From a virus, in the IMG/VR virus record IMGVR_UViG_3300031857_001124, positions 1-27,059 of that record: a stretch of 27,059 nucleotides of DNA; one strand, 5' to 3'. The notes under the pieces are model-generated. The model saw only the letters and a list, made by a program, of their open reading frames with translations. It searched no databases and was not told where the DNA came from. A program made the translations under genes and the position numbers. This document shows, in pieces, positions 3,739 through 26,972 of this stretch (its first letter is position 1; the number at the start of each line of letters is the position of its first letter).

Positions 3739-4232
3739 AGTTTCAAGGCAAAGTGGTCCGCAAGCAGCTTGGGGGCATGCTCCCCACCAACGCCGCTGCC
3801 GATAGCGCGGCTCGGATCATGGGCGGTGTTCGATTCCCGAACGCGCCGAGTCTGGCCGGTATCCCCGGCGTCCCGATGAATATGCCCGTCCCCGGCGTGT
3901 CGCAGAGCGCGGCGATCCCCGCTGCTCCTGCTACCGGAAGGCGCCGGCAATCGACACAGGATCTGCTCCAGTCTGCCGTGATGGGCGGACTCGCTGGACT
4001 CGGCGGCACTCCGGGGATTACCGCCGGTCTTGCGATGCAGATCATACCCATCTTGGCGGGCCTGATGAAAAAAGGGTCCGCGATTCCCAAGAAAAAAGGA
4101 GGTGGTCCAGTGAAAGGTCGCATGAAGAACGAGGCCGGGAAGAACGCAATGCCCAAGCCTGCGAAGAAGGTCGCCGCGGCGAAGAAAGGCTACGCCAAAG
4201 GCGGCATGATGAAGAAGGGCAAGGCGTGCTAG
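3735..4232 (+). CDS. Phage protein with hydrophobic middle and Lys-rich tail
   Basis: 165 residues from the ATG at 3735, chosen because it overlaps the previous stop (ATGA). The longer frame to 3672 would run inside the zinc ribbon gene. It begins MKFQGKVVRKQLG, then a Pro/Ala/Gly-rich region with GIPGVPMNMPVPGV. A Gly/Ala/Leu-rich helical stretch follows (about residues 80-112, ending in IIPILAGLMKKG). The C-terminal 50 residues are strongly basic (KKKGGGPVKGRM, KPAKKVAAAKKGYAKGGMMKKGKAC). The C-terminal block can be made separately from an internal start (see 4110). Family unknown to me. The (F/Y)A-x-GG motif in the tail recurs in the internal virion proteins downstream. Confidence 0.7.
   Translation: MKFQGKVVRKQLGGMLPTNAAADSAARIMGGVRFPNAPSLAGIPGVPMNMPVPGVSQSAAIPAAPATGRRRQSTQDLLQSAVMGGLAGLGGTPGITAGLAMQIIPILAGLMKKGSAIPKKKGGGPVKGRMKNEAGKNAMPKPAKKVAAAKKGYAKGGMMKKGKAC
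4096..4102 (+). promoter_or_regulatory. Perfect internal Shine-Dalgarno (AAGGAGG)
   Basis: AAGGAGG at 4096-4102 is one of the best matches to the anti-Shine-Dalgarno in the late operon and lies inside a coding frame. A GTG follows at 4110 with a seven-base spacer, in the same frame as the enclosing gene. It is the main evidence for a nested translation start. Confidence 0.55.
4110..4232 (+). CDS. Nested in-frame Lys-rich peptide, 40 residues
   Basis: Starting at the GTG after AAGGAGG, the frame encodes 40 residues with about fifteen Lys or Arg and one acidic residue (VKGRMKNEAG..., then KKVAAAKKGYAKGG, MMKKGKAC), ending at the same stop as the enclosing protein. Free-standing Lys/Gly-rich mini-proteins of this sort occur in other podovirus-like phages. 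This gene may therefore be a fusion that kept the original start, or a dual-product gene making both a long form and a basic short form. It is in-frame, so codon signals cannot separate the two. The role may be DNA binding or charge neutralisation in the head; that is inference. Confidence 0.4.
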   Translation: MKGRMKNEAGKNAMPKPAKKVAAAKKGYAKGGMMKKGKAC

Positions 4233-7438: not shown

Positions 7439-7752
7439 TGTGGGGCTGGTTAAAAAGAGTCGCAAGCCACGGCGTACCGATTGCTGTGCAACTGGTCCCC
7501 GGAGCATTCCGCCCGGTTGCTGACGTCGTGTACACCGGGGTGCGGAATGCCGAAATGGCAGGAGGCACGGGCCCAGAGAAGCTGTCGTGCGCCATGCGGT
7601 ATATCACCTTGATGATTCCCGCCATTTCGCTGCTGCTCCGGCGGATAACGGGCAAGGAGGTCGTGAACGAGCAGGCCCTGGTCGAGGCGCTCGCGCACCT
7701 CGCTGAGTTCTTTGTTCTGATCGAAAAGGCGGTCGGGGTAAAGCCGTCGTGA
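7438..7752 (+). CDS. Small protein before the holin, 104 residues
   Basis: The start is the ATG of the TGATG overlap, with GGGAGG about eight bases upstream; the track's earlier in-frame start would overlap the previous gene further. The N-terminus (MWGWLKRVASHGVPIAVQLVPGAF) is an amphipathic or hydrophobic segment. A second hydrophobic stretch (YITLMIPAISLLLRR) lies near residue 60, and the end is helical (ALVEALAHLAEFFVLIEKAV). One or two weak membrane-associated segments are possible. It is coupled by GTGA overlap to the holin gene, so a role in lysis timing, such as an antiholin, is a reasonable but unproven guess. Confidence 0.55.
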   Translation: MWGWLKRVASHGVPIAVQLVPGAFRPVADVVYTGVRNAEMAGGTGPEKLSCAMRYITLMIPAISLLLRRITGKEVVNEQALVEALAHLAEFFVLIEKAVGVKPS

Positions 7753-8126
7753 AGAAGGCAATTGCGGCCATTCCTGGCCTAATTCTGGGGGCAATCTATT
7801 CGATGCCGACGTTATTGTGGGGGCTGCTCGGCCTCCAGGTCGTCGATTTCGCAACCGGGTTTCTCGTTGCGTGGTCCACGGGCGCGGTGTCGTCCGATGT
7901 CAGCAGAAGGGGATTCGTAAAGAAGACAGTCGCACTCCTGCTGATTGTCGCTTTGGAGATCGCTGAATCAGTTCACCCGATGCCGTTTGAACTGTCGGCG
8001 TATGTGGCCGGCTGGTTCTGCCTGACCGAACTGATTTCCATCATGGAAAACTGCGGCAAGGCCGGCCTGCCCCTACCGCAAAAACTGACGAACGTACTGG
8101 CGCAACTCCAGGACGAAAAAAAGTGA
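7749..8126 (+). CDS. Phage holin, Phage_holin_4 (TcdE/Cph1-like) family
   Basis: 125 residues from a GTG that overlaps the previous stop. Three hydrophobic segments: about residues 20-44 (including LLWGLLGLQVVDFATGFLVAW), 59-75 (TVALLLIVALEIAES) and 84-101 (AYVAGWFCLTELISIMEN). The signature is that of the toxin-secretion/lysis holin family: DFATGFLVAW, then S...SRRGFVKK, then ELISIMENCGKAGLPLP and a C-terminal amphipathic helix. Holins form holes in the inner membrane at a set time and let the lytic enzyme out. No recognisable endolysin gene is next to it, which is unusual for the arrangement. Confidence 0.87.
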   Translation: MKKAIAAIPGLILGAIYSMPTLLWGLLGLQVVDFATGFLVAWSTGAVSSDVSRRGFVKKTVALLLIVALEIAESVHPMPFELSAYVAGWFCLTELISIMENCGKAGLPLPQKLTNVLAQLQDEKK

Positions 8127-8980
8127 ACTGGACGGTAACCCGCACCGATAAACAGTGCGTGGATATCGACTTCGACTGCTCCCAGAAGAAGATCGTATCG
8201 GCGTTGCTACTCGCCGATGAACACGCCGATAACGCCCACTCCGACCTTGCGCTGATCCGCAAGCACCACGCTGAGGCTGTGGCCTTGGGTGCCCCGATCC
8301 TCAAGTTCGGGGATACGTTCTGCGCCATGGAAGGCAAGTGGGACCGGAGGGCAAGTGAATCCGCCTTGCGACCAGAGATGCGAGGTGGAAACTACCTGGA
8401 TAAGCTGGTGTCGTTTCACACCGGTCTGTACCTGCCCTACGCGAAAAACATCGCCGTCCTCAGCGACGGAAACCACGAGACCTCCATTCTCAGGCACCAC
8501 CAGACAGACCTGCTTGAGCGGCTGACGCAGAATCTTCGCACGTTCGGGGGGCCTTGCGAACATATGCCATTCACCGGCTTTGTCCGGTTCAAGTTTGACC
8601 TCGGCAACCGGCATCGCGACTCAAGGACGTTGCACTACCACCACGGATACGGCGGCGGCGGGGAGATCACGCGAGGCCTGATCGACAACTCGCGCACGCG
8701 AGGACAGTACTCGGCGGATATCTACATCAGCGGCCACATCCACAGGCGCAACAGCGATGAGAACATCATGATCGGCGTCAATGGGAGGGGGCACGTTGTG
8801 CAGCAACCCCAGCTATTCCTCCGCGCCGGGACGTACAAGCGCGAAGAAATGGGAGGGTCTGGGTATCATACAGAGAGGGGCCGCTCGGCCAGGCCGATAG
8901 GCGGCTGGTGGCTGGACTTCGAGGTATCCAGAGACCGAAACAATACGTTCGTTGATGTTAACTACCGATCCGCAAAATGA
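8123..8980 (+). CDS. Calcineurin-like metallophosphoesterase
   Basis: 285 residues from a GTG overlapping the holin stop. The metal-binding motifs are in order: D32-x-H34 (LLLADEHADNAHSD), G63-D64 (LKFGDTF), G116-N117-H118-E119 (SDGNHE), H173-H174 (YHHGYGGGG) and G204-H205-x-H207 (SGHIHRR). This is the complete set for the calcineurin-like fold, which hydrolyses phosphomono- or diesters with two metals. In the second motif the usual downstream Asp (GDxxD) is Cys67, a small departure. Such genes are common in phages, with unknown substrates; DNA ends, cyclic nucleotides and host RNA are candidates. Its place inside a lysis-like group is unexpected. Confidence 0.88.
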   Translation: MNWTVTRTDKQCVDIDFDCSQKKIVSALLLADEHADNAHSDLALIRKHHAEAVALGAPILKFGDTFCAMEGKWDRRASESALRPEMRGGNYLDKLVSFHTGLYLPYAKNIAVLSDGNHETSILRHHQTDLLERLTQNLRTFGGPCEHMPFTGFVRFKFDLGNRHRDSRTLHYHHGYGGGGEITRGLIDNSRTRGQYSADIYISGHIHRRNSDENIMIGVNGRGHVVQQPQLFLRAGTYKREEMGGSGYHTERGRSARPIGGWWLDFEVSRDRNNTFVDVNYRSAK

Positions 8981-17232: not shown

Positions 17233-20200
17233 ATGGAGCCAACCTACAAGCAGTACATACGCGAACTCGGTGCAATTGTAACCTTTCCCGTCGGCGTCAC
17301 TGAGGAGGAAAAGCAGGAGTTTATCCAGCGAACGCTCGCCTCGCGCAATCCGGCGGCTGCTGCTCCCGCGACCCCCCCTCCCGCCTCGGGGATTCCGAAC
17401 CCCTTGCGGTTCGTTGCGGATGTCTTTTCTGGCATCCCGTCTGGCATAATTCAAGGCGTCTCCGCGGTCCCCGAGGGGATCGGCGGCATGACCGGAAACG
17501 AATTCCTGAAGGATCTTGGGCTCGCCATCCGCGACAATCAGCTATCGAACGTACTGACGAAGCGATTCGAGGGAGAGACCGCTGGCCGTGATATCGGCGA
17601 ACTCATCGGTAATCTTGGCACCCTGGTCGGGCCAGGAGTGTATGCTCGGGCGGCTGGCCTCGGGTCCACTGCTGCCCGCGCCGCCGGTCTTGGCATGGGA
17701 GTCTCCTCCGGTGCCGCCGAGCAGGTCCGCGAAGCCGCCGCGAATCGACAGGCCGGCATGGCCGTGAGTCCTGAGCAGGAGCAGCTTGCGGCCATGATGG
17801 GAGGCGCGACCGGGCTGGCCGACATAATTCCCGCCGAACGCCTCATCAGCCGATTTAGCCCTCTCCTGCGCGGAGCCAATGAACTCGCCCAGAAGACCGT
17901 AGGCCAGCGGCTGGGCATGGCACTGGGAACGGGTGCCCTCGAAGGAGGCACCGAACTCGGGCAACAGATCGCCCAGAACGTCATCGAGCAGCAGGTATAC
18001 AACCCACAGCAGGAAACATTCGAGGGCGCTCTGCCTGCCGCAGGCACCGGGGCTGCCGTAGGGACCGGTCTCGACTTCCTTCTGACGACACTTGGACAGC
18101 GCGTCGCCAGGAAGATGCAGCCGCGCATTGAGCAGGCACGGCAACGACAACAGGGCGCTGGCCCCGCTGTCCCCGCAGGACCAGAAGACGCCATCGGTAT
18201 CCGAAGAACGGAAGCGGGCGACCCGGAGATCACGGTGATTCCTCGAGCGGGAGCGCGGCCTGCCCCGACTCCGCCCACAGTTTCGCCCGCACTCCCCCCA
18301 GAAGATCTGGCCTTCGCGCAGGACCTCGCTGATCTCAATCGGCAACAGCAGCCACCCGCTGCACTCTTCCCCTCAACGCCTATGTCGGAGCAGGCGCTGG
18401 GTGAATTCCTTAACCCCCCGGAAGTCTTCCCCATCGCCAACCTCCCCATGGGAGATCTCGGAGGCGCAGGCGAGTTCACGCCGTCCGGTCGGTTCGTTCC
18501 CGCCGTTGATCCGCTTGCCCCCGGTCTATTCCGAGACAGGCCGCGGGAGATGCGGGGGACGGGGGCGCCACCTCAGCCCGTGGTCCCGATCACGCCCGTT
18601 GCGCCGACTCCACGGCAGGCTCCTCGCCCTCCGATCACGTCTATTCTCGACCTAATGATGGGAGGCGGAGCGGACATTCCCAGCCTCAGCCAGGACGAGA
18701 GACTTGTTCTGGACCTAATCGGACAACAGCGCCGCCCGTCTCAGCCCGTCCCTCCGATGCCGTATGCCGAGACGCTTGAACTCGGGCCGCAGCAGCCATA
18801 CCTCCAGGATGCGCTCGCACGGCAGCGAGCCGAATCCCAGCGGCTTGCCGAGAGTCAGTCGGTGGTCGATCAGTTGCTGGCAGCGCAACGCGCCCCGGTT
18901 CCTGAGCCAGCCCCTGCCCCCACATCGACAGCAGCCCAGCGGCCGCAAACCGTGGAGGACGAAATCTATGCCCTGCTTGATCAGATGCGGGCTCGCAATG
19001 AGCAACTGAGAGCCGCGTCCTCTCCTCCGGCGCAGCCATCCCTTGACCTAGCTGAACAACGCAGGCAGCGAGAGCAAGTTCTCGCCGAGCAGCGCAGTCA
19101 GTTTGAGCAGCCGACAGGGATGCGAGTGAGCACCGCCGAACAGCGCGATGCGAGTTTGCGAGAGACATTCAAGCGCGTCAATGCCGAGGAACTACGCCCT
19201 GTCGAACGCGCCCGCGCCGAGCGCCAACGCGCCGCCCGACGTACCCAAGCCCCCGTCGTCCCCGAGACGGGAGTCCCCAACGAGATCGCGCTTGACGCCC
19301 AACAGCGCCTCGCCCGCGAGGAGTTCAACCGGAACCTGACCGAACTCAACCCGGACGAACTCGCCATCGTGCAAGCGAAGCAGGAATCCGGCCTCGGCTC
19401 TGCCGTCCGACCGCAGGAACTCGCCGATGTCCGGGAGTTCGCCGACCTCCCGTTCACGCGGGATCAGTATCGGCAGGCCATTGAGATCGGGAAGACTACG
19501 GCGCCGATGGGAACCCGTGGCGTGGCTAACGCCACGAACATTGCCAGATCCCTCAATGTCTCGACCGAGACCGCGCAGTCCATCACCGACACCATGCTCC
19601 GCCGAGGTGACGCCACTCCAATCCCTCGGTCTCCCGGAACCGTTCGGATCAATCCTGAATCCACGGGCCCCCGCTTCAGCGTGGAGCCCCCAGCGACCGA
19701 GACCCCAACGCCGATCACCGTCGAAGCCTTCCGGCAACGTATCGCCCGCGGCGAGGTCCCGGAGGTGCCGCTCCAGATCCACGCAGAACTCAAGTCTCTC
19801 GGTGTCGACGACCTGGTCTCGGCGAGGCTCGTGGATTCCCTTGGAAGCCCGGATGTCGCCGGCCAGTACGCCAATCGCATCATCTCCCTTGCACTTGCCG
19901 GGAAGTCTCCTGACCAGCTTCGCTCGACCCTCAACCATGAGGTCGTACATTCCCTGGTCGAACTTGGGATTTTCAGTAAGGCTGAATGGAACCTACTTCA
20001 GAACACCTTGACCCCGAGCGCAGTCCTCAGCGACGACGAGCGGAAATTCTACGCCGATCTCTACAAGAACGACCCCGAGGCTCTCGCTGAAGAGGCGGTC
20101 GCCCGAGGGATACAGAAGTACATCGACGGGCGCATGGATCTGCCCCGGCAAGCCGCTGCCGCGGTCGAGAAGACCACGTCCGTATTCTCGAAGCTGGGGG

Positions 20201-23200
20201 ATCTCTTCCGGGAGCGTGGCCTGGAGACGCCCGAGCAGGTCATCGGCGCGTTCCGGGCTGGCGAGATTGGAAGACGGCAGTTGCCCGGAACGCGCACCGC
20301 GAGCACTCCATCGAATACGGCGGACTCCACGAACCTGCGCGACCTTGAGGACCTTCTGGGGAAGACGGATTCTGAGGGATATGCGATTCCGGAGGAGCGG
20401 GCCAGACTCAGTTACGTTGGGGAGCGGGCGTACTCAGAAGACCCGGCTGAATCCGCTCGCATCGCTTCATTCCGCGAATCGGCGATGAAGATGGAGCAGT
20501 CGGGCGAGGACCCGGAAAAGATCCGGCTCGCAACGGGATGGTTCCGAAACCCATATGACCAGATGCTGCGGTATGAGGTAGGGGACCAGGGAGCATCGCT
20601 GACCCAAGCATTCCGGGATCTTCCAGAGTCTGGCAGATATGCCGAACTAAAGGAAATCCCTCTTGAAGAAGCACTGGACCATCCGGATCTGTTTCGGGCG
20701 TATCCGGAGCTGAAGAAAGTAAGAGTTATCAAGCAACCAGGGTTTTTTGATATTTTTAGAGGGCTGCAAGGATACTTTGATCAGGAAAGAAATATCCTCA
20801 ACATCACCCCGTACGCCAAAGATCCAGGGGGCACTATGCTCCACGAGATCCAGCACTGGATTCAGACCAAGGAGGGGTTTGCCCCCGGAGGAAACGAGAA
20901 CCTTGCAGTAGAGCAAGCACCTAAGGATAAAATTGAGAAAATTATCCTCAGCGCGATGGATGAGAAACAAAAAGGACTAGACGAGAAGGCTCAAAAAGTT
21001 CTTGATCTAAAGTCATCTATGGCTAACCTGCGAGATCTGGAAAAGAAATATCCAGCTTTCGTGAAAGAATATAAGTTGGCGGAGCGGAAGAAAGAATTAG
21101 CACGAGAGGCGTACTACAATAAATCCGGCTCACTTGAAGACTACAATAATTCAATAGGGTTGTTAGCAGAGGCACTGAAAGATATAACAGATCGAATCAA
21201 AAAAGATCGTGGAGTATCTGAGCTAACTTTTCGAGAAAAAGTAAACATCCGGACAAAAACAAGAGAGGCTCTTGAATTTAAGCAAGACAAGCTGGATGAG
21301 GCAGAGTCCAAGTTCATGGCCGCTCAGGATGAACTCTCAAAGATCAGACGCGGCGATCCAGATACGATCAATCAGCTGGTCAAGGACAAGGGGTTTGAAC
21401 TATACAAGAACATCGCAGGAGAAATCGAGTCCCGCGACGTCCAAGCCCGCCAGTTCATGACTCCGGAGGAGAGACGGCAATCGCGCCCACTCTCCTCGGA
21501 GAATATCTCCCCCTCTGACGCCATCACCATCCGTCCCGGCGTCCCGGTCCCCCGCCTCTCCATCGAGCAGGAGCCGGTACCCAACCCGTTCTTCGCGCCG
21601 CCCGAACCAGGCAAATCCATCGCCCAGACCGCAGCTGAGAAGCTACAGTTGCGTCCCAGTTCGCTGAGTGAGACGCGAACGGCGGTCATCGACCGTCGCG
21701 CCCCCTTCGCCAAGTTAGCTCGCGCCGCAGGGACCATCGGCAAAGCCGAGATCTCCAGCGAAGAAGCCGTGCGCCGCCTCGACGTAGCCAACGATCAGGC
21801 CATCGCGAACCTGAAATTCGGGCCTCTGAAACTCGAAGGCAAGGCTGGCAACGGCTACTTCATCGCGAGCGAAGGGCCGCATCCGCTCGGCTCCGATGGC
21901 TACATGACCCGGATGGCCGAGGCTGGGAAGCTGGACAAGTTCTTCCACTATCTCGCTGGACTTCGCTCCACCGCCCTCGGTGAGCGCGAGAAGCAGCTTA
22001 CCCCGGCGCAGATCCGGCAGTACCTGAGCTACGGGAACGAGCCAGGAATCAAGCAGGCCGCCGCCGAGCACAAGCAATTCAACGATGGGATGATCGATGC
22101 GGTCGTCGCCTCCGGGCGATTCTCGAAGGAAGAGGGCGAACGACTGAAGCGCGACATGTATATCCCCTACCTGCGGATCAGTGAGACGCCCGAGGGCGAT
22201 GTTCGCTTCACTGCCGGCGGGGCGAGCCTCGCCTCTGCCCCCAAGCTGAAGGCGCTCAAGGGCGGCCTCGGGCAAGCAGCAGATCCCCTCGCTACCTACG
22301 TCGAGAACGTCCAGATGCTGACCACCATGGCGTTGAAGAATGAGGCCATGAACCGCGTCAGCCGCGACGGCATCCAGGCCGGCTACATGCGCCCTGCTCG
22401 CAAGGGAGACGAGAATACCGTCCAGGTATGGGTCAACGGCCAGAAGAAACGCATGGCCGTTCTCGACAAAGAACTCTACGAGAGCGTCACCTACGCCCCG
22501 CAGCCGCTCAGTGACATTATCAAGCTGCTGGCGATACCCGCCGATGCGCTCCGCGCCTCAGTAGTCTTCTCGCCCATCTATCCCATCCGCAACCTCATCC
22601 GCGACTCGCAGCAGGTCTTCGCCCAAGGCTATACCGACATGCCGATCATCTCGGCTCTCGACGGCGTCCGCAAGGCGCTCACCCGATCAGAGTCGTTCCG
22701 CGATCTCGAGCGGTTCGGCGTGGTGTCCAGCAACATCCGCGGCGAGGGCGGGGGCGAAGGCACGGCGCGGGAGGCCCGTGCGATGCTCGACTCTTCGCTC
22801 CTTGGCGCGGTGTCGAAGGGCATCCGCGCCTTCGAGGATTTCAACCAGCGATTCGAGGCCGCCAATCGCATCGTCGTCTACGAGAACCTCCTCAAGAAAG
22901 GCTACACGAAGGCGCAGGCGGCATCGGAGGCCCGCGAACTGGTGAACTTCAACAGGCATGGAGCGAACGTCATCATGCGGTCGCTGTCGGCGCTAATCCC
23001 CTTCCAGAACGCCCGCATCCAGGGCGCTGACGTGCTGTACCGTGGGGCTGCAACGAAAGACAACCCCACGATGCGCCGGCAACTCTACACCCGTGGCGCT
23101 ATGCTCGCTGCTCTGTCGATGACCTACGCGGCCGCCATCCAGAACAACCCGGCCTATCGGTCGGCGTCCGAGGAAGAGCAAGAAAACAATTGGTTCGTTC

Positions 23201-24036
23201 CTCTGCCGGATGGTGGGGCTATCCGTGTTCCGATCCCGTTTGAGCTGGGCTGGTTCGTCAAGGTGGTGCCGGAAAAGATGGCGCAATTCATGAACGGCAC
23301 CGCCGATGGCAAGGCGTTCTTTGATAGCTTCCTTCGCTTCATGGAATCGACGATGAAGTTCGACGTCGTCCCCCAAGCGGTGAAGCCGTTTGTGGAGGCC
23401 AAGATCACCAACTTCGACAGCTTCCGCGGCAAGAACGTCGAACCGAATTGGATGAAGCGACTCGAGATCGCCGACCGCTACGACGAGCGCACCACCGAAG
23501 TCGCCAAGGCGATCTCCGAGTACTCCAATGGCGTGCTGTCGCCGATTCAGGCGGATCATATGCTGCGCGGATACAGCGGCACGACCATGAACTACCTCTG
23601 GCAGACCCTGGATTTCGCCACTAACCCGCAGGCATCGCCTTCGCTCGAGAGCAGGCAGGCCGCCGAGATGCCCGTCGTGGGTACGTTGTTCGCGCGGCGG
23701 GACGGCGGGCGGAAGCTGGCGGAAGCCTACGAGATCCGCGACCTCGCCGATCAGGCCGCGGCATCACTCCGGCTTCGGCTGCGTGAGGGTACAGCGATGG
23801 AGGCCCCAGAGCGGGAGCGGTTGACCCGCGAGGCCGGATTCGATCAGGCCATCGAGCCGATCAATCAGGCGCTTACCGCGCTGAACCAACGGGAGCGGGC
23901 GCTGCGGCGCGATATTCGCATGGGTCGCGTTACCGGCACGCAGGCGAAGCCGGAACTCGACAATATCCGGGCGAGAAAGATCGAACTGTCCGAGCGAATC
24001 CTGGAGATTCGGAAGCGGTTGGTTCCGGGTGGGTGA
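17233..24036 (+). CDS. Giant polyvalent ejection protein with two zincin-like domains and LPD38-like region
   Basis: 2267 residues. Order: a Gly/Ala-rich, membrane-active-looking N-terminal part (about 55-330); a Pro/Gln-rich linker (330-720); a possible winged-helix (about 727-805, IARSLNVSTETAQSITDTML); a metalloprotease-like domain with H902-E-V-V-H906 and E953/E954 (PEALAEEAVARG); a second domain with TGWFRNPYDQMLRYEVGDQG, PYAKDPGGTMLHEIQHWIQ (H1204-E1205, H1208) and AGEIESRDVQAR (E1397); and a long C-terminal region (about 1480-2170) with YPIRNLIRDSQQ, ALIPFQNARIQG and IPFELGWFVKVVPEKM, matching LPD38-type polyvalent domains. A terminal coiled coil ends it. Such proteins are packaged and injected with phage DNA. 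The second zincin's body is interrupted by a low-GC coiled-coil insert. Protease activity is inferred from motifs only. Confidence 0.82.
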   Translation: MEPTYKQYIRELGAIVTFPVGVTEEEKQEFIQRTLASRNPAAAAPATPPPASGIPNPLRFVADVFSGIPSGIIQGVSAVPEGIGGMTGNEFLKDLGLAIRDNQLSNVLTKRFEGETAGRDIGELIGNLGTLVGPGVYARAAGLGSTAARAAGLGMGVSSGAAEQVREAAANRQAGMAVSPEQEQLAAMMGGATGLADIIPAERLISRFSPLLRGANELAQKTVGQRLGMALGTGALEGGTELGQQIAQNVIEQQVYNPQQETFEGALPAAGTGAAVGTGLDFLLTTLGQRVARKMQPRIEQARQRQQGAGPAVPAGPEDAIGIRRTEAGDPEITVIPRAGARPAPTPPTVSPALPPEDLAFAQDLADLNRQQQPPAALFPSTPMSEQALGEFLNPPEVFPIANLPMGDLGGAGEFTPSGRFVPAVDPLAPGLFRDRPREMRGTGAPPQPVVPITPVAPTPRQAPRPPITSILDLMMGGGADIPSLSQDERLVLDLIGQQRRPSQPVPPMPYAETLELGPQQPYLQDALARQRAESQRLAESQSVVDQLLAAQRAPVPEPAPAPTSTAAQRPQTVEDEIYALLDQMRARNEQLRAASSPPAQPSLDLAEQRRQREQVLAEQRSQFEQPTGMRVSTAEQRDASLRETFKRVNAEELRPVERARAERQRAARRTQAPVVPETGVPNEIALDAQQRLAREEFNRNLTELNPDELAIVQAKQESGLGSAVRPQELADVREFADLPFTRDQYRQAIEIGKTTAPMGTRGVANATNIARSLNVSTETAQSITDTMLRRGDATPIPRSPGTVRINPESTGPRFSVEPPATETPTPITVEAFRQRIARGEVPEVPLQIHAELKSLGVDDLVSARLVDSLGSPDVAGQYANRIISLALAGKSPDQLRSTLNHEVVHSLVELGIFSKAEWNLLQNTLTPSAVLSDDERKFYADLYKNDPEALAEEAVARGIQKYIDGRMDLPRQAAAAVEKTTSVFSKLGDLFRERGLETPEQVIGAFRAGEIGRRQLPGTRTASTPSNTADSTNLRDLEDLLGKTDSEGYAIPEERARLSYVGERAYSEDPAESARIASFRESAMKMEQSGEDPEKIRLATGWFRNPYDQMLRYEVGDQGASLTQAFRDLPESGRYAELKEIPLEEALDHPDLFRAYPELKKVRVIKQPGFFDIFRGLQGYFDQERNILNITPYAKDPGGTMLHEIQHWIQTKEGFAPGGNENLAVEQAPKDKIEKIILSAMDEKQKGLDEKAQKVLDLKSSMANLRDLEKKYPAFVKEYKLAERKKELAREAYYNKSGSLEDYNNSIGLLAEALKDITDRIKKDRGVSELTFREKVNIRTKTREALEFKQDKLDEAESKFMAAQDELSKIRRGDPDTINQLVKDKGFELYKNIAGEIESRDVQARQFMTPEERRQSRPLSSENISPSDAITIRPGVPVPRLSIEQEPVPNPFFAPPEPGKSIAQTAAEKLQLRPSSLSETRTAVIDRRAPFAKLARAAGTIGKAEISSEEAVRRLDVANDQAIANLKFGPLKLEGKAGNGYFIASEGPHPLGSDGYMTRMAEAGKLDKFFHYLAGLRSTALGEREKQLTPAQIRQYLSYGNEPGIKQAAAEHKQFNDGMIDAVVASGRFSKEEGERLKRDMYIPYLRISETPEGDVRFTAGGASLASAPKLKALKGGLGQAADPLATYVENVQMLTTMALKNEAMNRVSRDGIQAGYMRPARKGDENTVQVWVNGQKKRMAVLDKELYESVTYAPQPLSDIIKLLAIPADALRASVVFSPIYPIRNLIRDSQQVFAQGYTDMPIISALDGVRKALTRSESFRDLERFGVVSSNIRGEGGGEGTAREARAMLDSSLLGAVSKGIRAFEDFNQRFEAANRIVVYENLLKKGYTKAQAASEARELVNFNRHGANVIMRSLSALIPFQNARIQGADVLYRGAATKDNPTMRRQLYTRGAMLAALSMTYAAAIQNNPAYRSASEEEQENNWFVPLPDGGAIRVPIPFELGWFVKVVPEKMAQFMNGTADGKAFFDSFLRFMESTMKFDVVPQAVKPFVEAKITNFDSFRGKNVEPNWMKRLEIADRYDERTTEVAKAISEYSNGVLSPIQADHMLRGYSGTTMNYLWQTLDFATNPQASPSLESRQAAEMPVVGTLFARRDGGRKLAEAYEIRDLADQAAASLRLRLREGTAMEAPERERLTREAGFDQAIEPINQALTALNQRERALRRDIRMGRVTGTQAKPELDNIRARKIELSERILEIRKRLVPGG
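20700..21420 (+). other. Low-GC island inside the giant gene
   Basis: Base use changes sharply within the reading frame. Hand counts give 25/60 G/C at 20941-21000, 26/60 at 21061-21120, 24/60 at 21121-21180 and 20/60 at 21181-21240, against 38/60 at 22681-22740. Codons shift to AAA, ATA and GAA. It covers the HEIQH segment and the coiled-coil insert (about residues 1160-1396), up to the AGEIESR motif. The frame stays open, so this is a functional import rather than decay. Confidence 0.85.
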
Positions 24037-24041
24037 TTTGT

Positions 24042-24090
24042 GATACCATGAGGTATCTCCTCCAAGGCGGGGAGGTGCTCTTCCTCCCGC
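24042..24090 (+). other. Two hairpins after the late operon (structured 3' end)
   Basis: GATACC at 24042-24047 pairs with GGTATC at 24052-24057 around an ATGA loop. A second stem, GCGGgGAGG (one bulged G) against CCTCCCGC, lies at about 24067-24090 with a TGCTCTT loop. With the terminator downstream they form three stems in about 100 bases. They may stabilise the late mRNA 3' end, mark a small RNA, or be part of an attachment site next to the integrase gene. No tRNA cloverleaf can be drawn. Confidence 0.4.
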
Positions 24091-24107
24091 ATCTCCTTGT
24101 ACGTTAA
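24048..24107 (+). CDS. Possible 19-residue peptide before the terminator
   Basis: An ATG in the loop of the first hairpin opens a complete frame, MRYLLQGGEVLFLPHLLVR, whose stop TAA touches the first base of the terminator stem. The start codon sits between the two arms of a perfect inverted repeat, which would hide it. GGGTGG some fifteen bases upstream is a poor ribosome-binding site. Probably chance; listed because it fills the whole gap. Confidence 0.12.
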   Translation: MRYLLQGGEVLFLPHLLVR

Positions 24108-24142
24108 CCCCCGCGGCGACGCTCACGCCACGGGGGTTTTTT
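24107..24142 (+). terminator. Rho-independent terminator of the late operon
   Basis: ACCCCCG (24107-24113) pairs with CGGGGGT (24131-24137), and GGCG inside pairs with CGCC after one C/A mismatch, leaving a seven-base loop. Six T (24137-24142) follow. This is a textbook intrinsic terminator for + strand transcription and lies between the giant gene and the convergent integrase. On the other strand the stem is not followed by a T-run, so it acts in one direction. Confidence 0.9.
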
Positions 24143-24149
24143 CTGTGTG

Positions 24150-24950
24150 CTACTTCAGCAGCCCAGCCATCCGCTCAGTGGCATTCCGGGTGTAGTCCGG
24201 GTCGTACTTGACGTAGACCTTCTGCGTGATCGCTACGTTTGAGTGGCCGAGCATGCGGGACACCTCGATCAGCGGCACCCCGGACGATATCAGCGCCGTT
24301 GCCACCCCGTGCCGGATGCAGTGCGGCGTGGCCCCGACTACCCCCGCCACCTTGCATACCCGCCGCCACTCGGCGAGGTAGACGTGATACCGGACGCCGA
24401 TCACATGGTCACCGTTTCGCGGACACCGGGCGAGAACCTCCGAGATAGCGGGGATCACCGGAATCACCCCGCGCCGCTTCTGCCGCGGACCCGCCCCCAG
24501 CGTGAAGTCCACGATCCCGTTGCGGATCTGGTCCCAACGCAACGTCAGCACCGCGTCGATGCGCTGGCCGGAGGCCATCGCGAGCCGGGTTGCTGCATCG
24601 AACCACCACGGCGCCGGGACGGCGAGAATCGCCCGCATCTCCTCCGGTGACAGGAACCGGGAGCGCGGAGGCGGGGCAGCCGGAACCTCCCAGAGCGGGA
24701 CAGCCGGGAGGTGGCCGGCGCGGACGAGCCACGTCGCGAACACGCGCAGGCAGGCGAGGTCCCGGCGGATGGTTCCGGGGCTCAGGTCCAGCTTCTGCGT
24801 CACCCTGTCCGTCTCCTGGTGCGTCCACTTCGCGGGGGTGAGGCGCATTAGTGGTTCGTAGTGAGAGGCCGCCAGTTCGAATCGTTTCCAATCGAGGATC
24901 GGCCCCGCCCTCTCCGAGCGGAACCGGGTCCAGTGGTGGGCGAGGGTCAT
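24150..24950 (-). CDS. int: Tyrosine recombinase / integrase
   Basis: 266 residues. Residues about 1-95 form a helical core-binding domain (including SPGTIRRDLACLRVFATWLVRAG). The catalytic part has the full set: R130 (ASGQRIDAVLTLRW), K158 in the beta hairpin (PRQKRRGVIPV), H210 and R213 (TPHCIRHG), H236 (LGHSNVAITQ) and the nucleophile Y246 (KVYVKY). It integrates or excises phage DNA by site-specific recombination. The short N-terminus, with no obvious arm-binding domain, is at the small end for phage integrases. ATG start overlaps the stop of a 30-residue membrane peptide (TGATG). It converges with the late operon, so the attachment site may lie in 24037-24149. It is the main evidence for a temperate lifestyle. 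Confidence 0.93.
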   Translation of the reverse strand: MTLAHHWTRFRSERAGPILDWKRFELAASHYEPLMRLTPAKWTHQETDRVTQKLDLSPGTIRRDLACLRVFATWLVRAGHLPAVPLWEVPAAPPPRSRFLSPEEMRAILAVPAPWWFDAATRLAMASGQRIDAVLTLRWDQIRNGIVDFTLGAGPRQKRRGVIPVIPAISEVLARCPRNGDHVIGVRYHVYLAEWRRVCKVAGVVGATPHCIRHGVATALISSGVPLIEVSRMLGHSNVAITQKVYVKYDPDYTRNATERMAGLLK

Positions 24951-25042
24951 CAGTTTGGCCTCATGTGGGTCAGCAGGTACAGCAGGATCAGTAGTACCCC
25001 GACGATTGCGTCGGAGCCGTTGTTTCTCCGTCGCCGCCTCAT
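24950..25042 (-). CDS. 30-residue membrane peptide coupled to the integrase
   Basis: Too short for usual gene callers. The frame starts MRRRRRNNGSD with five Arg in a row, then a hydrophobic helix (AIVGVLLILLYLLTHM), then RPN. Arg-first then helix predicts a single-pass protein with its N-terminus in the cytoplasm. Its ATG overlaps the upstream stop (ATGA) and its stop overlaps the integrase ATG (TGATG), so both ends are coupled, which is good evidence that it is translated. Family not recognised. It could link membrane state to integrase expression, act as a small superinfection factor, or simply aid coupling; none is shown. Confidence 0.6.
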   Translation of the reverse strand: MRRRRRNNGSDAIVGVLLILLYLLTHMRPN

Positions 25043-25236
25043 CGAACCCCCCTCCCGGCGCGGTTCGCCTGGTTCACCTTCGCGTTGTGCAGCAGCTTCC
25101 GTTCAGTCGGCGTGAGCGCGGCGAGACGGGCCTCGAGGACCTGGGTTACGCCTTTGCTGATCTCCAGCGCCAGCATCCGCTGAACCTCCCGGTCAACGAT
25201 GCCGGCGAACATAGCAATCTCATGCTCCCGCGGCAC
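25039..25236 (-). CDS. Small helical protein, start uncertain
   Basis: The end of this frame looks coding: a helical, charged sequence (MFAGIVDREVQRMLALEISK, then VTQVLEARLAALTPTERKLLHNAK) finishing with the ATGA overlap to the 30-residue peptide. The real start is unclear. GTG at 25236 gives 65 residues but has no good ribosome-binding site. The residues just upstream (SFRQEIAACLTNLFGD) also look coding, yet no ATG or GTG is found before an ATG at 25521, deep inside the preceding gene in another frame. Either a non-canonical start, long overlap or frameshift is used. No family recognised. Confidence 0.5.
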   Translation of the reverse strand: MPREHEIAMFAGIVDREVQRMLALEISKGVTQVLEARLAALTPTERKLLHNAKVNQANRAGRGVR

Positions 25237-25253
25237 GTCGCCGAACAGATTCG

Positions 25254-25778
25254 TCAGGCAGGCCGCGATTTCTTGACGGAAGGACGTATACGCGGGTTGA
25301 GCACCGAGTACACCCGCTTGCCCTTGGCAAGCCGGCGCGTCTGCTCGAGGGTCGCTCGGGCGTCCTCCGCTCTCTGCCGCTCCTGGGCGAGGCGCTCCTG
25401 ATCCTCCTTCATGGCCCTGCGTTGCTCCCGCAGTTCCTGGAGCTCCTTCGATGCCTTCGCCCGTGCGCGGGCGTGGTCCTTCTGCTTGGCCGACAAAATC
25501 AAATTCGGATCGATATCCCATTCTCGTTTTCCTCCTGGTGGCAGGTGTTTCGTTTCGCAGCTATACCGTAGCTGCGCGGTGCGGATGAACCTCCGACACT
25601 TCTGGCAGACCGTCCACTGCTCCTCCTTCCCCCGGATCAGTACCTCCCGGCGCTCCAGCTCCCAGACAAGGAAGTCGGTATGGACATCGGATAAATCCGG
25701 GGGGATGGTGAAGTTATTCGCGAGGACGGGGTCGCTGAGTTTGGGCTCCGGGAGTCGGACCCGGTACCGAGGTCTCAT
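25254..25778 (-). CDS. Putative zinc-binding coiled-coil protein, 174 residues
   Basis: The start is in an ATGA overlap with the 31-residue peptide upstream. C58 and C61 (VCQKC) with C74 and H78 (YSCETKH) make a plausible CCCH zinc site. A long, highly charged helix follows (about 97-152, with KELQELREQRRAMKEDQERLAQERQR), and the tail is basic (IRPSVKKSRPA). This layout suits a nucleic-acid or partner-binding small regulator, but I do not recognise a family. Location two genes upstream of the integrase suggests a role in the lysogeny region. The following gene's N-terminal coding sequence overlaps its end in the -1 frame. Confidence 0.62.
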   Translation of the reverse strand: MRPRYRVRLPEPKLSDPVLANNFTIPPDLSDVHTDFLVWELERREVLIRGKEEQWTVCQKCRRFIRTAQLRYSCETKHLPPGGKREWDIDPNLILSAKQKDHARARAKASKELQELREQRRAMKEDQERLAQERQRAEDARATLEQTRRLAKGKRVYSVLNPRIRPSVKKSRPA

Positions 25779-25870
25779 CGCAACCCCAAGGCGAACAGCA
25801 CGCCGAGGAGGATGAGCGCGAAGAGCGCGGAGTCGATGAGGAATACGATGAGGGGGCGGTATTTATTCAT
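25775..25870 (-). CDS. 31-residue membrane peptide
   Basis: Starts MNKYRPLIVFLIDSALFA and continues as a hydrophobic run (ALILLGVLFALGLR), giving one membrane helix with an Asp at residue 13 in its middle. Positive residues precede the helix (K3, R5) and one Arg ends it. The ATG lies inside the last codons of the upstream gene (8-base overlap) and the stop overlaps the next ATG (ATGA). The neat coupling on both sides argues for real translation. No family recognised. A polar residue in the helix often marks oligomer formation; that is inference. Confidence 0.6.
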   Translation of the reverse strand: MNKYRPLIVFLIDSALFALILLGVLFALGLR

Positions 25871-26120
25871 GGCCCACCAGCACAAACGTATACCCGTCAC
25901 CGTTGTAGCCCACGGCGTGCTCCCCAACCGGACGGATTTTCCGCATCGCCTGCCAGTGGCTGCTGTCGTCCTTGTAGACCGCCCAGGCGGTTTCCTGCGC
26001 GGTCCAGGCCTTCACGCGGGCGGGCAGGTTCCGCGTGCGCGGGAAGTACCGCGTGTGGATGGCGTAGGCCGGCTTCTCATGCGCGGCGATGATGGCGCCG
26101 GCGAGTTCAAGTTCAGTCAT
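25863..26120 (-). CDS. Small phage protein, 85 residues
   Basis: AAGGAGA about seven bases before the ATG is a strong ribosome-binding site, lying in the end of the upstream gene. The sequence begins with a short helix (TELELAGAIIAAHEKPAYAI), then a beta-like basic part (RYFPRTRNLPARVKAW), and ends with KIRPVGEHAVGYNGDGYTFVLVG, whose GYNGDGY loop resembles a compact beta fold. No family assigned. The 8-base overlap with the 31-residue peptide and with the preceding gene indicates operon expression. Confidence 0.65.
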   Translation of the reverse strand: MTELELAGAIIAAHEKPAYAIHTRYFPRTRNLPARVKAWTAQETAWAVYKDDSSHWQAMRKIRPVGEHAVGYNGDGYTFVLVGHE

Positions 26121-26814
26121 TTTCGTTCTCCTTCATAGCGATGTCCAGATAAGCGGTCAAAATCCCGCCCCGCGTGCTCGCCCTCGCACGGATAAGCGTG
26201 GTGGTATCCGGCGGGTACATCCCCGGCGGAACGACGACGAAATGGGGGATGGAATACTTGCCTAACCACGCTAGCCTCCAGTACCCGTAGTGCGAGATAG
26301 ACTCCTTTTCAAGACTAATCTCGGAGTAATCCTCTCGCGGCGGCGTACCGTCGACTTCGTATCGGTACTGAGAACTTAGCGTATGATTCCAGAATCTCGG
26401 CTTACGCAGCGCATCCGCGACCTGAAGTAGGAACCTGTTCCCGTTGCGCCAGGTAGCCTCACTGGTTATAAGGGCCGCATAACCTGGGTTCCATCCATAG
26501 CCTACCTCCAGCGCCTCAGCTCCGTCTCGGTAAGCGAAGCTAAGCCGGCCTTCGGGGATCTTGGCGGCATGATTCCGCAGCCATAGTATGCCGAGGGCGC
26601 GAGCGGCGCGGGAGTATGCTGCCGGGTAACCTTTGGGCTTCTTGTTGTGCTGGTCCGCCTCAGCCAGCAGGCGTTCTACGTTGTCTAGAGACGCATCGGC
26701 TCTGATGGTCGCCCCCTCGAGTGCATGGATACCAGCCATTACGGCGTCATCATAATATTCGGAAACTCCGGGGAGTGTCGCCTTCAGGTACTCAACGATG
26801 TCAGGAATATTCAT
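26113..26814 (-). CDS. Hypothetical protein, 233 residues
   Basis: Start chosen at ATG 26814 because AAGGAGAG lies five to six bases upstream; the longer frame to 26880 would overlap the 49-residue membrane protein. The N-terminal half is helical (IPDIVEYLKATLPGVSEYYDDAV, LDNVERLLAEADQHNKKP, YSRAARALGILWLRNHA). The C-terminal half is beta-rich with many aromatic residues (GYGWNPGYAALI, SSQYRYEV, YGYWRLAWLGKYSIPHFVVVPPGMYPP). No catalytic motif is obvious and I do not recognise a family. GC is visibly lower than in the integrase. Likely an early or accessory gene of unknown use. Confidence 0.68.
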   Translation of the reverse strand: MNIPDIVEYLKATLPGVSEYYDDAVMAGIHALEGATIRADASLDNVERLLAEADQHNKKPKGYPAAYSRAARALGILWLRNHAAKIPEGRLSFAYRDGAEALEVGYGWNPGYAALITSEATWRNGNRFLLQVADALRKPRFWNHTLSSQYRYEVDGTPPREDYSEISLEKESISHYGYWRLAWLGKYSIPHFVVVPPGMYPPDTTTLIRARASTRGGILTAYLDIAMKENEND

Positions 26815-26822
26815 ATCTCTCC

Positions 26823-26972
26823 TTAGAAAATCACGATATACACCACCAGCATCACCACCCAGGCCGCAGCGAGCAGACACTCGTCCAGTGTCTGCCGCCG
26901 GTCAATCAGCCACACGGCGGCTTGGCCGGCGGCGTCGGAGAGCGCCCAGAGGGCGCGGATTAGGTGGGTCAT
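26823..26972 (-). CDS. 49-residue protein with C-terminal membrane helix
   Basis: Start at ATG 26972, with GGAGG about seven bases upstream and an ATGA overlap with the preceding stop; a longer frame lacks such support. Residues 1-22 form an amphipathic helix (MTHLIRALWALSDAAGQAAV), then WLIDRRQTLDEC, then a hydrophobic helix to the very end (LLAAAWVVMLVVYIVIF). It is tail-anchor-like: most of the chain would be in the cytoplasm. The stop is about 8 bases before the next gene's start and inside its ribosome-binding site. No family recognised. Confidence 0.6.
   Translation of the reverse strand: MTHLIRALWALSDAAGQAAVWLIDRRQTLDECLLAAAWVVMLVVYIVIF

Follow-up and report, generated by a model that had tools for sequence, protein, structure and literature searches.

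Gene content of the integrase locus

The window, by which we mean the whole 27,059-nucleotide stretch of viral DNA that was analysed, makes up all of its source record (IMGVR_UViG_3300031857_001124), with no genome beyond it, and carries at its right end a chain of minus-strand genes that reads t49, a 233-aa gene, an 85-aa gene, m31, zn, hx, m30, and an integrase gene. The product of t49 (26823-26972) is a 49-residue membrane protein with a C-terminal hydrophobic segment of the tail-anchor type, in agreement with an earlier, sequence-only reading of this DNA, which had placed such a protein further up the strand. Next come the 233-aa gene (26113-26814), which is variable cargo, and the 85-aa gene (25863-26120), which overlaps it; both have strong Shine-Dalgarno sequences (GGAG for the latter). 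The gene m31 (25775-25870) encodes a 31-residue single-pass membrane peptide; zn (25254-25778), a 174-residue putative zinc-binding and coiled-coil protein; hx (25039-25263, coordinates that begin two codons before a CTG at 25257), a helical protein of about 72 residues; and m30 (24950-25042), a 30-residue arginine-rich single-pass membrane peptide.

The last gene (24150-24950) encodes a 266-residue protein with a short N-terminal region, which is a tyrosine recombinase according to its profile matches (PF00589, 60.5 bits against a cut-off of 27.1; phrog_1 integrase, E 1.1e-39) and its catalytic residues, and is predicted to catalyse recombination between attP and attB. Residues R130, H210, R213, H236, and Y246, which we take to be the catalytic R, HxxR, H, and Y, are invariant in all three known copies. 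At low similarity, the protein also matches two likewise short tyrosine integrases of solved structure, the PDB entries 5vfz (Gp33, E 2.2e-07) and 5c6k (Integrase, E 1.6e-08), presumably the integrase of mycobacteriophage Brujita and a P2-like integrase, respectively. Brujita is a phage with integration-dependent immunity. No integrated copy of the locus with both ends was found.

The plus strand before the chain is occupied by late-type genes, including that of a 2267-residue protein (17233-24036; 1839 residues in the 58-kb relative described below), of which the stop codon at 24036 faces that of the integrase and the C-terminal part has matches in 138 phage records, at less than 60% identity. 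The convergent intergenic region (24037-24149, listed with the minus-strand features) contains a GC-rich hairpin (cccccg...cggggg) that is kept in the 58-kb relative and was not seen in the more distant copy; a terminator scan reported none by its T-run rule. This region is a candidate place for attP or a terminator. The late region also encodes a holin (7749-8126, plus strand; PF05105, E 1.1e-25), and after it a 285-residue protein (8123-8980, plus strand) that has no Pfam match and contains GDTF, GNHE, and GHIH-like motifs, which suggest what we presume to be a metallophosphoesterase.

Predicted features of the small proteins

The description of the small frames as membrane-type in the earlier reading holds. 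The m30 peptide has five N-terminal arginines and one hydrophobic segment, with a peak 15-residue hydropathy of 2.43 (2.68 in its distant counterpart). Membrane orientation is commonly predicted by the positive-inside rule, which suggests that the N-terminus of m30 lies in the cytoplasm: the arginine-rich end would be inside the cell, followed by one membrane helix and a short conserved tail (THxRP) outside. The zn protein has a C-x2-C-x12-C-x3-H motif (C58, C61, C74, H78) that is invariant in all three copies; its structural model contains a long helix or coiled coil at residues 91-160 that is confident over most of its length, the model as a whole (mean pLDDT 57) being too poor for a fold search, and a zn profile found no match in PDB. 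The hx model, of low confidence (pLDDT 71) and built from only two sequences, is a two-helix hairpin rather than a winged helix, and matched no PDB fold. In the libraries scanned, which received differing sets of peptides, none of m30, m31, hx, and zn had a convincing family match; m31 had one chance-level PHROG row (E 0.46), for a family of unknown function.

Gene junctions and translation start sites

The 85-aa gene and m31 overlap by 8 nt (ATGAATAA), m31 and zn by ATGA, hx and m30 by ATGA, and m30 and the integrase gene by TGATG. The earlier claim of a continuous series of overlapping small genes ending in the integrase is thus borne out at these junctions, and fails at zn/hx, where the window has no in-frame ATG or GTG for hx at the zn stop codon. 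The in-frame start candidates of hx are CTG at 25257 (overlapping the zn stop as CTGA), GTG at 25236, and ATG at 25212. From the zn stop to the ATG at 25212, the window and the 58-kb relative differ at five sites, each of them a third codon position of hx (the whole of 25263-25039 has 11 differences, distributed as 1, 0, and 10 on codon positions 1, 2, and 3), and in the distant copy hx begins with a GTG that shares GTGA with the zn stop, with similarity to the window hx from there on. These observations favour a start upstream of the ATG at 25212 as the likelier one, probably the CTG at 25257, which is an unusual start codon. The -1 position of the hx frame also raised the possibility of a frameshift that joins zn and hx; a classical slippery heptamer was not seen, however, and a substitution in the 58-kb relative alters the AAG AAA stretch.

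The sequence-only reading had remarked that the two smallest frames are flanked on both sides by overlaps. A scan of both strands of the window for hydrophobic ATG or GTG frames of 25-50 codons overlapped at both ends, by criteria chosen after m31 and m30 had been seen, returned exactly these two. Shine-Dalgarno sequences are strong before the 233-aa gene, the 85-aa gene, and m30 (GGGAGG in all three copies), and weak before m31, zn, hx, and the integrase gene, of which the site is only a GAGG inside the last codons of m30 in both the window and the distant copy. Translational coupling along the chain may be envisaged from this pattern. Ribosomes would load at the 85-aa gene and pass by coupled restarts through m31, zn, and hx, and would load again at the strong site of m30; because the integrase site is weak and embedded in m30, with its start codon in the TGATG, ribosomes finishing m30 would be expected to restart there on the integrase gene, so that the two products would be made together in a ratio set by the junction. 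The m30-integrase mRNA has no structure beyond chance to enforce coupling (z 0.13, -0.11, and 2.10).

Homologous loci in relatives

Three copies of the locus are known, including that of the window, and two of them are 91% alike. The closer relative is a contig of 58,002 bases (IMGVR_UViG_3300032322_001610), which matches the region over 4574 bases with 91% nucleotide identity. The other is a 6084-base contig in a MAG titled Acidobacteriaceae bacterium isolate M025S2SP1A36QC, the genome that also contains the only genome contig found to encode a relative (82%) of a 634-residue virion protein; from the MAG binning, the host is probably a member of the Acidobacteriaceae. The integrase of the MAG contig is 69-70% identical to that of the window, and zn 41%. 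Its gene order is a 29-residue t49-like peptide, a 144-aa gene, a 36-residue membrane peptide that starts in GTGA, zn, hx, a 29-residue counterpart of m30 that starts in ATGA and ends in TGATG with the integrase gene, and the integrase. The 3' end of the late protein gene faces the integrase from the other strand in all three copies, and both m31 and m30 are open in both relatives, so that the interruption of the short frames that would have spoken against them was looked for and not seen.

The slot between t49 and the small-gene chain varies. In the window it holds the 233-aa gene (26113-26814), which has no match in the 58-kb relative, where only a short repeat of an MTELELA stretch is present (extract positions 3759-3830); in the MAG copy it holds the 144-aa gene (264-698), located upstream of the m31 counterpart, which is unrelated to the 233-aa gene and in which the 85-aa gene is not recognised (P 0.146). 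The t49 protein is 78% identical in the 58-kb relative, and its 29-residue counterpart in the MAG copy has a similar C-terminal hydrophobic segment (shuffle P 0.004).

No fourth copy was found. Scans of viral contigs with the integrase, hx, zn, the late protein, and the 85-aa gene returned the 58-kb contig alone, as did three-row alignments of the integrase and hx, and zn was found in one of 30 records, again the 58-kb relative. With zn and integrase profiles, the MAG was the sole genome found, among 237 from the family to which it belongs and 399 from the class. Nothing was found by blastn of the cassette against phage records, or by tblastn of zn against phages and plasmids, of the MAG hx against phages, or of m30, its MAG counterpart, and m31 against phages at E 10. 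Literature searches on small membrane proteins, integrase coupling, exclusion, and Acidobacteria prophages did not turn up the cassette.

Selection on the short genes

Between the window and the 58-kb relative, m31 has nine substitutions of which two change amino acids (neutral mean 6.1, P 0.0026), indicating purifying selection; hx has 11 substitutions and three amino acid changes (P 0.0036), and the integrase gene 58 and 10. For m30 the same pair gives six substitutions and three amino acid changes (neutral mean 4.1, P 0.29), which is no signal. Between the window and the MAG copy, m30 has a pS of 0.56 and a pN of 0.24 (Fisher P 0.006, from rounded counts), compared with 0.54 and 0.22 for the integrase gene, 0.53 and 0.38 for hx, 0.59 and 0.44 for zn, and 0.61 and 0.54 for m31. 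Identity of the m30 peptides is 17 of 29 residues, against a mean of 12.3 when the 29 nucleotide changes were placed at random (P 0.011), which also created an internal stop in 46% of trials; the conserved residues form the patterns RRxRRN and YLLTHxRP. The m31 peptide is linked to its 36-residue MAG counterpart by position, size, hydrophobicity, and a weak alignment (shuffle P 0.002). Thus the bias toward synonymous substitutions that the earlier reading had proposed to look for is present for m31 in the close pair and for m30 in the distant pair, and absent for m30 in the close pair. The substitution patterns argue that m31 is a gene, on the strength of the close pair (against the MAG copy, hardly more than its position and hydrophobicity is kept), and that m30 is conserved at the protein level to about the degree of the integrase. 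The claim that the small frames are genes is upheld: the chain is real and conserved, and ordinary gene calling would probably overlook it.

Genome context and distribution of the cassette

The integrase gene of the 58-kb relative is the last in a minus-strand series with genes for a primase-polymerase, helicase, DNA methylases, processivity factor, YqaJ exonuclease, and RecT-like protein, and the late genes run the opposite way from terminase and portal. The contig has the genes of the YqaJ exonuclease and RecT-like protein at its opposite end; for the series to be unbroken, the genome would have to be circular or permuted, which we presume it to be. A helicase-like gene of this relative (46928-49669, minus strand) matches the intein/homing-endonuclease families PF05203 and PF05204. 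In the lambdoid left early operon, recombination genes are followed at the far end by xis-int and then attP. The present arrangement resembles it in that a long early-type operon closes with the integrase gene, opposite the late operon's end, and in the presence on the same strand of the YqaJ exonuclease and RecT-like annealing protein in the 58-kb relative. It differs in having no recognisable excisionase and a 30-residue membrane peptide directly before int, and an HTH_3 repressor was found in none of the three records searched, including the 58-kb relative, in a limited test. Aeromonas phage phiARM81mr has a related late protein (27% identity over 540 residues), and in its record int is first on the minus strand and the late genes are at the end on the plus strand; unlike the window, it has an annotated excisionase, which adjoins int, as well as a CI repressor and Cro.

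Among 50 virus records that encode a relative of the 634-residue virion protein (taken from 80 loci, the remainder being the 58-kb relative and, for the most part, short contigs), none had a PF00589 integrase, in a search in which the window and the 58-kb relative were positive; only four of the 50 records exceed 55 kb, and the others, including six close relatives, may be too short to show an integrase. On this evidence, the integrase cassette seems to belong to this lineage in particular. Phages and plasmids gave nine hits to more distant integrases, at about 24-32% identity; one was left out because its match equals that of another hit, and one for having no annotation, and in none of the remaining seven does a hydrophobic frame of 15-60 codons end near the annotated integrase start. 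It follows that the arrangement is no common trait of this class of integrases and that m30 is not their general partner, and we regard it as a lineage-specific micropeptide.

Possible functions of m30 and the associated genes

The chain may form the last part of an early operon that runs leftward in a podovirus-like phage and closes in the tyrosine integrase. Judging from its junctions and conservation, m30 probably both feeds the translation of the integrase and is itself a membrane protein, and might be active at the membrane early, when the integrase is too, either as a small effector directed at the host or as a partner of the integrase, instead of being a mere leader. As a whole, an early-operon end with m30 as a true membrane microprotein feeding integrase translation is the best explanation that we can offer, and we would give it an even chance of being correct.

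Much of the same evidence could be read as m30 being only a cis-acting leader, of which the translation sets integrase output and the peptide is inert: m30 has the strong site, the integrase gene the weak embedded one, and the two meet in TGATG. A leader of this kind would keep its frame and let its peptide drift freely, but the sequence of m30 is kept (RRxRRN and YLLTHxRP) with a pN/pS equal to that of the integrase, and only its last few codons overlap the integrase ribosome site, making this reading unlikely, if still worth consideration. If instead hx were an excisionase, m30 could be a by-product frame between xis and int. Excisionases are often located just upstream of the integrase, and hx fits in its small size and in ending 93 nt before the integrase start; however, its low-confidence model lacks a winged helix, the family and fold searches gave it no convincing match, and m30 is as conserved as the integrase, so that we consider the idea quite improbable. 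That the short frames are chance ORFs, for which only the lack of a selection signal for m30 in the close pair speaks, is already largely refuted by the retention of m30 with both of its junctions in the divergent MAG copy, and is the least credible possibility of all.

Exclusion proteins known so far are often small membrane proteins, and three genes of this size and type (m30, m31, and t49) beside an integrase gene might form a superinfection-exclusion or lysogeny-control set, as the earlier reading suggested. Against this, the limited search of the 58-kb relative found no HTH_3 repressor, the zn, 85-aa, 233-aa, and 144-aa genes, and hx, had no convincing match in a defence library (best E 0.016), a separate lysogenic promoter was not evident in a weak test, and m30 has a distal place in an apparent long early operon that runs leftward; such a role is improbable, a little more so than that of an inert leader. 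Small membrane peptides in a phage also bring to mind lysis accessories of the holin or antiholin type, but a PF05105 holin is already present in the late region (7749-8126), the peptides are encoded on the opposite strand with the integrase, and m30, m31, and t49 had no match, to holin families or others, in Pfam or, at 0.1, in PHROG, leaving a lysis function very improbable.

To return to m30 as a membrane microprotein co-translated with the integrase, a bolder and highly speculative extension, about as doubtful as an excisionase role for hx, is that m30 is a membrane partner that tethers the integrase or attP DNA through its arginine-rich end; integration would then be membrane-linked and timed by translation, and zn and hx would complete a set of recombination-control proteins that lacks a classical excisionase. 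What the locus presents is a gene of 29-30 codons, shorter than gene callers usually accept, on which the constraint matches that on the adjoining integrase gene. Should peptides like this one prove to work together with phage integrases, part of the control of integration would be going unseen in standard annotation, above all among phages whose soil hosts have received little study.
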